Positions 5,327 through 44,044 of a stretch of 64,000 nt of DNA are shown one piece after another. This DNA is from Arcticibacter pallidicorallinus (GTDB lineage Bacteria > Bacteroidota > Bacteroidia > Sphingobacteriales > Sphingobacteriaceae): assembly GCF_003002875.1 (NCBI RefSeq), contig NZ_PVTH01000002.1, positions 434,001 through 498,000 of the forward strand. The letters run 5' to 3'. A program made the position numbers and the translations under genes. The first letter of the stretch is position 1. Every line of letters starts with the position of its first letter. The notes beneath the pieces were generated by a model. It did no database searches. It saw only the letters and a list, made by a program, of their open reading frames with translations, and was not told where the DNA came from.

Positions 5327-5357
5327 TAACATTCATCAAATCATTTGATGAATGTTA
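5327..5357. promoter_or_regulatory. 31-bp palindrome, likely operator of the GH28 gene
   Basis: Fourteen-base arms are perfectly inverted: TAACATTCATCAAA (5327-5340) and TTTGATGAATGTTA (5344-5357), separated by TCA. The right arm contains the TTTG (5344-5347) that would serve as the -33 element for a -7 box TACTTTTG at 5369-5376. An RNA hairpin is the alternative reading, but no T tract follows, and the Hsp20 terminator already lies upstream. A dimeric repressor or activator site is the simplest explanation. Confidence 0.55.
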
Positions 5358-40164: not shown

Positions 40165-40738
40165 ATTTTTTTTATCTGAAGAAAGTTTCTCAGCGGTGTG
40201 TGCGAGCACCAGATGGTTCCCAGCAGCGCAACTCCGTCGAAATGTCCTCTTAACAGATGGACGTTTGACGCCTCTATGCCCCCTATAGCAATAGCTCTGG
40301 TGCTTTTTCTCAAGCTTGGTATCGCACCCTCAAGAGATGCGGTATAACCAGGTTTGGAGATACTGTCGAAGACAGGTCCTAGAAAAGAGTAACCAAATGA
40401 GGGGTTAAGTCGCTCGAAGTCTTCAGTGTTATGTACTGATGTGGATAGTTGATAGCCCTTGTTTCTTAGTAGTTGCGGCATATTATACCCTTGCCTCCGC
40501 CGGTGGGGTTCGCCGAAATGTAATCGTCTGATTCCATATCGATCCGCCAGGTGGTGATGCTGGTGAAGGCTGATTTTAGGGTAATATCTGCTGTCGAGCG
40601 CTTCTATCAATTTCATCACATCTTGCTCGCTGTCTTGCGGTCTTCGAATATGAAAGAGGTCCAAGCCCTCATCAAAAAGTTGTTTGATGAGGGCGGTTTC
40701 TTCAGCTAAGGAAGTTGGGTTAGATATTAAAATCAACA

Positions 40739-40739: not shown

Positions 40740-42755
<2,016 letters not shown>

Positions 42756-42758
<3 letters not shown>

Positions 42759-42829
42759 TCCTAAATAGATTAGACTTTAGGAATGACTATAGGAACATAT
42801 ACAAGGGAATCTTGTATACGTATGTCATT
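42756..42829 (-). promoter_or_regulatory. riboswitch expression platform with start-codon sequestering hairpin
   Basis: Read on the minus strand, CATTCCTAAA (42785-42776) pairs perfectly with TTTAGGAATG (42765-42756), whose last three bases are the thiS ATG. The alternative is GTCATT (42787-42782) pairing with AATGAC (42829-42824), enclosing a TATACAAG/CTTGTATA stem. The two folds share bases 42782-42785 and exclude each other. This fits translational control by TPP. Confidence 0.6.
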
Positions 42830-42906
42830 AAACTTTTCCCTTCGGCAGTACTAGCTGCATCAGGTTCAAAGGGTTTTATCTCAGCCTACAGGCACCCCTA
42901 AAGTTT
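42830..42906 (-). promoter_or_regulatory. TPP riboswitch (THI element) aptamer
   Basis: The minus strand carries the classic elements in order: AGGGGTGCC, GGCTGAGATAAAACCC, TTTGAACCTGATGCAG and CCGAAGGGAAAAG. P1 can form between AAACTTT (42906-42900) and AAAGTTT (42836-42830). It precedes thiS and the whole thiS-C-E2-D-E-G-H operon, where it should reduce expression when thiamine pyrophosphate is plentiful. Confidence 0.93.
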
Positions 42907-42946
42907 TATAAAAGTAGATGATTAATCTCGAAGATCCAAACGGAGG

Positions 42947-44044
42947 CTAAATATACTTGTCTCCGAATTTTGTCTTCACCTCGGCGACGATCTGCTTTAC
43001 CTCTTGCTCGCTTTCTCTTGGAATGATCATGATGGTGTCGTTTGACTCAGCAATAATGTAGTCATTTAATCCCTTAACAATCAGTTTTTTTCCTTCCGGA
43101 ATGTTGATCATGCAGCCTGTAGTTTCTGTCAGAATGGTACCACCGGAGGGGATAACGACATTCTGATCTTCATCTTTAGACGCAAGTGAATACAGGGATG
43201 CCCAGGTACCCAGATCAGACCACCCGAACTCTACTGGCAACACATAAACGTTTTGCGCCTTTTCCATGATTCCGTAGTCGATGGAGATGTTTTCACAATT
43301 TGGATAATTGTCTTTAAGAAAAGCAGCTTCTCCATCTGTGTTATAGACATTTCTTCCCTGAAGAAACAGTTCGTTCATTTCAGGCAATTGCGATTCAAAT
43401 GCTTTGAGCACTTCGGCGGCGCTCCAGATAAAGATGCCTGCGTTCCACAAGTAGTCTCCGCTGTTGATGAAGCTTTGAGCTCTTTCTTTATCGGGCTTTT
43501 CTGTGAATTGTGCCACTTTCTTAAAGCCTTCTCCAAGATTTTGCTCATTAAATCGGATGTATCCGTATCCTGTGTCAGGTCTGGAAGGTTGGATGCCAAG
43601 GGTGATAAGGCATGGATTCGTCTCCGCGGTTTGCAGTGCATTAGTAACATCTTTGCTAAACTGAACAGAGTTGAGTATCAGATGGTCGGAAGGAGCTACC
43701 ACTATCGAAGCGCTGGGATTCAACTCGCTGATTTTGTGACAAGCATAAGCTATGCAGGGGGCCGTGTTACGCATAACCGGCTCACACAAAATCTGGTGTT
43801 CCTGAATTCCTTTTAACTGCTCCCCAACGAGGTCTTTGTACTTGTCATTGGTAAGGATATAGATGTTCTGCGCCGGAACGATCGACTTGAAACGTTCATA
43901 GGTAGCTTGGATCAAGCTCATGCCTGTACCAGCAATATCTATAAACTGCTTAGGCATCGCCGTGCGGCTAACTGGCCAAAATCTGCTTCCTATTCCGCCG
44001 GCCATGATCACCGCATAGTAATTGGAATTGAGTTCTTGATTCAT
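42947..44044 (-). CDS. manC: mannose-1-phosphate guanylyltransferase
   Basis: A 365-residue nucleotidyltransferase making GDP-mannose from GTP and mannose-1-phosphate. The signature MAGGIGSRFWPVSR with PKQF is at the N-terminus, and VVAPSDHLI, EKPDKERAQ and SIDYGIMEK follow. It lacks the C-terminal phosphomannose isomerase domain of the long bifunctional forms. GDP-mannose would feed surface glycans; a priming sugar-phosphate transferase gene lies 600 bases away on the other strand. It ends just upstream of the TPP riboswitch. Confidence 0.93.
   Translation of the reverse strand: MNQELNSNYYAVIMAGGIGSRFWPVSRTAMPKQFIDIAGTGMSLIQATYERFKSIVPAQNIYILTNDKYKDLVGEQLKGIQEHQILCEPVMRNTAPCIAYACHKISELNPSASIVVAPSDHLILNSVQFSKDVTNALQTAETNPCLITLGIQPSRPDTGYGYIRFNEQNLGEGFKKVAQFTEKPDKERAQSFINSGDYLWNAGIFIWSAAEVLKAFESQLPEMNELFLQGRNVYNTDGEAAFLKDNYPNCENISIDYGIMEKAQNVYVLPVEFGWSDLGTWASLYSLASKDEDQNVVIPSGGTILTETTGCMINIPEGKKLIVKGLNDYIIAESNDTIMIIPRESEQEVKQIVAEVKTKFGDKYI

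Follow-up and report, generated by a model that had tools for sequence, protein, structure and literature searches.

How would a TPP riboswitch control the start of thiS in a genome without a clear Shine-Dalgarno (SD) signal? The question is raised by a leader in Arcticibacter pallidicorallinus, located within a 64,000-nucleotide stretch of one contig that was analysed as a whole (hereafter, the window). A first interpretation of this leader, made from the nucleotide sequence only (the sequence-only reading), had proposed that the expression platform of the riboswitch can hide the thiS start codon. Here, this proposal is followed up by RNA folding, by comparison with other genes of the same genome and by comparison with thiS leaders from across the Bacteroidota.

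A TPP aptamer at the head of a thiamine operon

The RF00059 aptamer is the sole match in the window at gathering thresholds (Table 1). Its score exceeds the curated cut-off, and same-strand thiamine genes, namely thiS, thiC, thiE-like and thiD-like, lie 3' of it, so that the locus belongs to this class both by score and by gene content. The thiE-like product, despite its Pfam match, scored 31.4 bits with the NCBIfam thiE model (cut-off 145.1 bits) and may be TenI-like or a divergent ThiE. A perfect inverted repeat with 12-bp arms and a 6-nt loop is found near the start of this gene (window position 40665), and another one, with 14-bp arms and a 3-nt loop, at window position 5327. The ThiC protein (residues 1-395) is slightly closer to the homologs from Dawidia soli (81.1% identity) and Myroides odoratimimus (80.5%) than to those of three congeners (74.7-77.9%), and although these differences are small, the operon may have a source outside the family. 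The same genome contains a second TPP-like match (L002, C3:319090-319222; 133 nt, 49.5 bits, below the cut-off), upstream of a gene resembling, by eye, a TonB-dependent receptor, and similar sub-cut-off matches were found repeatedly in the genus.

Immediately upstream of P1, the window leader carries the box TACTTTTA, similar to TAnnTTTG, which we take to be the Bacteroidota promoter consensus. Of 64 leaders, 60 have such a box (5-6 of 6 matches) no more than 30 nt ahead of P1, 56 of them at a distance of 4-9 nt, whereas a control offset gave 4 of 30. Given this proximity, the transcript probably starts near P1.

Table 1. Coordinates of the features of the thiS leader and operon in the window
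Feature	Position	Strand	Details
TTTG	42940-42937	minus	20 nt further upstream of the -7-like box
Promoter -7-like box TACTTTTA	42916-42909	minus	4 nt upstream of P1 ACUUU
TPP riboswitch aptamer (RF00059)	42909-42820	minus	78.6 bits, gathering cut-off 54.3; full-length, positions 1-105 of 105
Aptamer 5' strand ACUUUAGGGGUG	42904-42893	minus	covers the P1 5' side and some of P2; alternative pairing with the switch strand
P1 3' strand AAAGUUU (DNA AAAGTTT)	42836-42830	minus	7 pairs with 42906-42900
AAUGAC (DNA AATGAC)	42829-42824	minus	5' arm of the stem proposed in the sequence-only reading; unconserved
Linker hairpin	42821-42795	minus	between aptamer and switch strand; predicted in both states
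Switch strand CAUUCCUAAAGU	42785-42774	minus	pairs with the aptamer 5' strand or the thiS start; seen again in relatives
Masked initiation region UUUAGGAAUGA	42765-42755	minus	paired with a mean probability of 0.968 when the aptamer is enforced; thiS AUG at 42758-42756
thiS, sulfur carrier protein	42758-42555	minus	67 aa; TIGR01683 46.8 bits (cut-off 37.45); PF02597
thiC, phosphomethylpyrimidine synthase	42550-40739	minus	NF006763 1067.1 bits
thiE-like (TMP-TENI family)	40739-40143	minus	PF02581 37.8 bits; under curated NCBIfam cut-offs
thiD-like, HMP-P kinase	40209-39415	minus	PF08543 175.6 bits; TIGR00097 155.4 bits, under its cut-off of 204.95

One strand with two mutually exclusive partners

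The switch strand CAUUCCUAAAGU can form 12 contiguous pairs (-13.7 kcal/mol) with the aptamer 5' strand ACUUUAGGGGUG, and the same switch strand also masks UUUAGGAAUG at the thiS start, the aptamer segment UUUAGGGGUG and UUUAGGAAUG being near copies of each other. A single strand, thus, pairs alternatively with one side of P1 or with the initiation region, which is the hallmark of an anti-P1/sequestor platform, and this arrangement recurs in relatives. In the minimum-energy fold of the leader, the aptamer is absent and the 12-pair helix, overlooked in the sequence-only reading, is dominant. In the free ensemble, the helix between the aptamer 5' strand and the switch strand had a probability of 0.977 and the sequestor one of 0.011, whereas with the aptamer pairs enforced the probability of the sequestor was 0.968.

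Folding of nascent transcript prefixes gives the predicted order of events. P1 was present at 0.88-0.90 in five of the six prefixes ending between 42823 and 42793 (0.65 in the one ending at 42805) and at about 0.4 in those ending at 42787 and 42781; in the prefix ending at 42775, 17 nt ahead of the first base of the AUG, the aptamer:switch helix stood at 0.91. Formation of P1 first and of the aptamer:switch helix next, before the AUG is transcribed, points to a switch turned OFF by TPP, in line with expectation for genes of thiamine synthesis. For the window leader, the free fold is more stable than the aptamer-enforced fold by 12.5 kcal/mol. At equilibrium, ligand binding is estimated to pay about 5 kcal/mol; because the gap exceeds this likely payment, either TPP acts kinetically on the nascent aptamer, ahead of the emergence of the switch strand, or the energy model undervalues the aptamer. 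When the transcript was extended to 42718, the AUG was mostly paired in the free state as well (probability of being unpaired 0.06-0.19), with codons further into the gene.

A long stem over the thiS start in a genome with no clear Shine-Dalgarno signal

The perfect ten-base stem containing the thiS ATG that had been described in the sequence-only reading is present, with CATTCCTAAA (42785-42776) pairing with TTTAGGAATG (42765-42756) on the minus strand, and extends to 11 pairs through U42786:A42755. As controls, we used 249 genes from the window and 400 kb of the same genome (open reading frames of at least 200 codons, with the first ATG picked mechanically). None of the 249 has a perfect Watson-Crick stem of at least 10 pairs over its AUG and a single one has a stem of 9, so that the thiS stem is longer than that of every control gene. 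By energy, in contrast to length, the start-region duplex is at least equal to that of thiS in 16 of the 249 controls; hairpin strength alone, therefore, says little, and judging the AUG hairpin by energy only was abandoned.

The masked element includes no SD sequence: an AGGA adjoins the thiS AUG with zero spacing, and no clear SD enrichment was detected among the 249 genes. Loose motifs (GGAG, GAGG or AGGA) at -20 to -5 occur in 13 genes compared with 22 at a control offset, and strict ones (GGAGG or AGGAG) in 5 compared with 2; the 3' end of the 16S rRNA retains CCUCC. The proposal that the expression platform can hide the thiS initiation region, in a genome with no clear SD signal, is supported. 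The SD counts agree with the ribosome profiling study of Flavobacterium johnsoniae, in which mRNA structure is reported to tune initiation and the phylum is said to lack SD sequences (PMC6847099).

Recurrence of the start mask among Bacteroidota thiS leaders

Leaders of thiS were gathered from the genus, the family and the phylum, together with named genomes reached through ThiC. The phylum search contributed 29 new loci and 14 further matches among the approximately 150 matches listed; four of these 14 were thiS loci, three of which were used (L262 failed the aptamer pattern). From 80 ThiC loci, 26 Bacteroidota leaders with the motif were used, and those set aside comprised 5 Bacteroidota loci lacking CUGAGA in the upstream 500 nt and 49 loci of other phyla. 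Altogether, 182 oriented aptamer loci were classed, 89 of them as thiS, after removal of L237, whose location is that of L132. Six of these thiS loci failed the aptamer pattern, three being restored for a set of 82 leaders and three more for the final set, as was L131, the start of which had not been found for the 82-leader set. Duplicates (L028, L195 and L066) were removed; L066, from Olivibacter sp. XZL3, and L172 agree at every base of the start and of the leader's final 30 nt. The final set consisted of 89 thiS leaders, 66 of which are non-redundant (<75% identical), all from Bacteroidota; because clades share history, the 66 do not represent independent events.

In the 82-leader set, a significant linker partner of the aptamer 5' strand (p ≤ 0.05) was detected in 66 leaders (48 of 63 representatives); in 53 leaders (38 of 63 representatives), this linker strand showed significant pairing with the start region as well. 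Because this overlap is partly forced by construction, an independent co-location test was used instead, in which the best partner of the start region was sought anywhere in the linker of the 66 leaders and the expectation was derived from random placement. The best partner of the start region overlapped that of the aptamer 5' strand in 57 of the 66 leaders versus 29.9 expected (0 of 20,000 simulations). The duplexes between the switch strand and its own start were also stronger, averaging -10.9 kcal/mol against -7.7 kcal/mol with permuted starts (sd 0.3; 0 of 20,000 permutations; n = 66). Leader by leader, 22 of the 66 own pairs ranked in the best 10% of swaps and 12 were weaker than the median swap. 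When the switch strand was extended, a significant switch/start helix was obtained in 50 of the 66 leaders and none in 16, as judged by plain rather than dinucleotide shuffles.

An ungapped switch/start helix of at least 6 pairs is present in 48 of the 66 leaders versus 26.8% of shuffled and 48.1% of swapped starts, all leaders being counted, including a few (L037, L155 and L169) in which the ungapped anchor is visibly wrong. The longest ungapped helix falls in register 0, where the first base of the switch strand faces the G of the start codon, in 39 leaders, ties being assigned to this register and 9 of the 39 helices having only 3-5 pairs. The other 30 have at least 6 pairs, typically CCAUUCCU:AGGAAUGG, as exemplified by Myroides, Chryseobacterium, Flavobacterium, Sphingobacterium and Dyadobacter. 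The pair at +4 varies with compensation among the 39 register-0 leaders (C-G in 19, U-A in 6 and U-G in 3), and the registers themselves shift between clades with compensating changes. Seven leaders (L172, L174, L176, L183, L187, L190 and L199) have a helix in register +5 or +6, within +1 to +13, and a switch strand changed to match. In the Olivibacter group, the switch strand UGACUUCUA pairs with UGGAAGUCA, that is, the end of the AUG and codons 2-4, and in Pedobacter hiemivivus, CUAUAGUUUUUCCA pairs with UGGAAAUAACUGUA, covering codons 1-5. The shifted registers indicate that the mask tracks the initiation region and yet stays complementary to the aptamer. As for the original idea that the AUG itself is masked, concealment of the initiation region is supported, but in some clades the mask covers codons 1-5 instead of only the AUG. 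In the Dawidia soli leader (L042), the AUG covered by an AGGAAUG hairpin is out of frame; thiS starts 7 nt downstream of it, which leaves AGGA at an SD-like distance of 7 nt.

The predicted cost of opening the start region depends on the aptamer

The cost of opening positions -6 to +9 was calculated for the 66 leaders with the aptamer either locked, by folding only the sequence downstream of P1, or free. The median was 8.9 kcal/mol in the locked state versus 4.0 kcal/mol in the free state. The difference reached at least 2 kcal/mol in 57 of the 66 leaders, compared with 19.9% of shuffled-linker controls, and fell below 2 in the other 9; in 51 leaders, the native sequence outperformed no fewer than 19 of its 20 shuffles. 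In the window leader, the difference was 7.0, compared with 0.7 for its shuffles. Among the named leaders that failed this comparison were those of Dawidia, Dyadobacter and Hydrotalea, with 7, 4 and 20 of the 20 shuffles, respectively, being as good as the native linker. The mean probability that the AUG is unpaired is nearly equal in the two states (0.23 locked, 0.29 free; 66 leaders), and because AUG pairing barely changes, the argument concerns the region as a whole rather than only the three bases of the AUG. Support was weaker for thiM: among 15 scored leaders (5 more of the 20 thiM-classed loci were unscored), the difference was at least 2 in 10, and 7 beat at least 19 of 20 shuffles (L004, L006, L010, L018, L024, L027 and L036). 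The thiM leaders appear to mask the start with other sequences, such as CCAUUAAU:AUUAAUGG in L036.

Alternatives to a translational switch

The explanation that survives best next to a start mask is transcription attenuation, whereby TPP would mainly end transcription in the leader or early thiS, through an intrinsic terminator or through Rho after translation is blocked; we regard it as unlikely for this locus. A simple pattern scan of 42500-43100 yielded no terminator-like site, so an intrinsic terminator in the window leader was rejected, and the AUG hairpin is followed by AAAAUCACU instead of a U-run. Among the 66 leaders, four (L005, L055, L124 and L147) carry a weak, loosely terminator-like hairpin soon after P1 followed by a U-rich run, and these might add transcription attenuation. 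A 2019 preprint, reportedly from the same group as the 2017 study of Bacteroides thetaiotaomicron, states by its title that regulation by the TPP riboswitches of Bacteroides acts on transcription or translation (10.1101/867226). In B. thetaiotaomicron, thiS/thiC mRNA drops with thiamine (PMC5613172), and a link between TPP binding, start-site pausing and Rho-dependent termination is described for Escherichia coli thiC (PMC5234074). Loss of mRNA through Rho, however, would follow from masking and not replace it. In the available portion of TaRTLEt, three Bacteroides species are named in the data set, and the six TPP loci showing a transcriptional signal include none of them.

Less probable still, and very unlikely, is the coupling originally proposed in the sequence-only reading, in which a stem between AATGAC and GTCATT (42787-42782, minus strand) would compete with the AUG hairpin and connect it to P1. 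The elements were correctly described: both are present, AATGAC adjoins the P1 3' strand, and the four bases CATT are common to this stem and the sequestor. However, the stem shares no base with P1 and so cannot report aptamer folding. Its probability in the 195-nt RNA is 0.000 in the free state and 0.004 with the aptamer enforced, and it was predicted in 1 of 18 transcript prefixes (0.51 in the one ending at 42781, 0.00 in the other 17), where it may be a transient intermediate. A stem of this type is significant in 8 of the 66 leaders, with a median energy of -2.7 kcal/mol compared with -2.2 in shuffles, and was discarded as the switch stem. The comparison of homologous leaders, suggested as a check of the idea, upholds masking of the start by an aptamer-complementary strand in most of the Bacteroidota thiS leaders compared but not conservation of the AATGAC stem. 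Similarly, the notion of two mutually exclusive folds holds insofar as the AUG-sequestering strand has an exclusive partner, but this partner is the aptamer 5' strand, and the statement that TPP would "release" the sequestering hairpin is apt only in the sense that the hairpin becomes free to form.

Least probable of all is that the AUG hairpin is fortuitous or constitutive and lowers thiS expression irrespective of TPP: the control genes that equal it in energy would allow this, but no control has a perfect AUG stem of 10 or more pairs, and the masking strand overlaps the aptamer-complementary strand, and masking tracks the aptamer state, each in 57 of the 66 leaders.

Proposed mechanism

The reading we prefer rests on the presence of the aptamer, on a pair of helices that exclude each other and recur in shifting registers, and on the lack of a terminator pattern in the window leader. 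As judged from sequence, folding models and comparison, the leader is most probably an OFF switch that acts on translation in response to TPP and in which two partners compete for a single switch strand. With TPP bound, the nascent aptamer would hold its 5' strand in P1/P2, and the freed switch strand CAUUCCUAAAGU would pair with UUUAGGAAUG, burying the AUG and blocking ribosome loading. At low TPP, the switch strand, transcribed before the start codon, would instead pair over 12 bases with ACUUUAGGGGUG and open the aptamer, leaving the start region available (ON). We infer that the leader RNA binds TPP, that the decision is timed co-transcriptionally and that repression is translational.

A broader version of this reading is put forward tentatively, as a possibility that we consider nearly, though not quite, evenly balanced: the platform would be a general, SD-free one of Bacteroidota, in which one switch strand has two near-identical alternative partners, the 5' strand of the aptamer and the first codons, the start context and ThiS codons 2-5 being selected to mimic the aptamer, and it would recur in thiM and perhaps in other riboswitch classes.

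The leader set yields a base-by-base model of a ligand-controlled mask on the start region, and joins the question of how Bacteroidetes riboswitches function with that of initiation tuned by mRNA structure. The model predicts compensatory mutations that are open to test in Flavobacteria, and suggests that prediction methods seeking SD sequences could misread such platforms.

Comparison with known systems

The aptamer of this locus is ordinary, and its expression platform, which recurs among relatives, follows a logic already known and is adapted to SD-free initiation; what appears to be new, judging by the predicted structures, is anti-P1/sequestor logic of the E. coli thiC type operating without a Shine-Dalgarno sequence. 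Among the open-access papers listed in our searches, no title or abstract opening describes such a platform; the 2019 Bacteroides preprint, known by its title only, may already describe start-region masking. In a 2007 survey, translation control was assigned by default, with masking structures unpredicted (PMC2258182).

The closest relative by phylum, aptamer class and first gene is the riboswitch of the thiamine-repressed thiS operon of B. thetaiotaomicron, likened here by operon description; unlike here, the effect was measured on mRNA (PMC5613172). The thiamine-dependent fall of thiS/thiC mRNA could represent transcriptional control in that species, and the 2017 paper calls the function of Bacteroidetes TPP riboswitches uncertain (PMC5613172). 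By mechanism, the closest counterpart is E. coli thiC, in which an anti-P1 helix is described as the competitor of P1 and of a stem sequestering the ribosome-binding site and start codon (PMC5234074). The two share the competition of anti-P1 with P1 and with a sequestor of the initiation region, OFF logic and co-transcriptional sensing, the latter inferred in our case. They differ in that the ribosome-binding site is masked in E. coli (PMC5234074), whereas here the mask is centred on the AUG, or on codons 1-5 in some clades, with AGGA directly adjoining the AUG in a genome that lacks a clear SD signal. In E. coli tbpA (thiB), likewise, the ligand-free ON state is reported to contain the anti-P1 helix and the OFF state to combine P1 with a masked initiation site, but the masked element there is a Shine-Dalgarno sequence and the start codon is GUG (PMC11487190).
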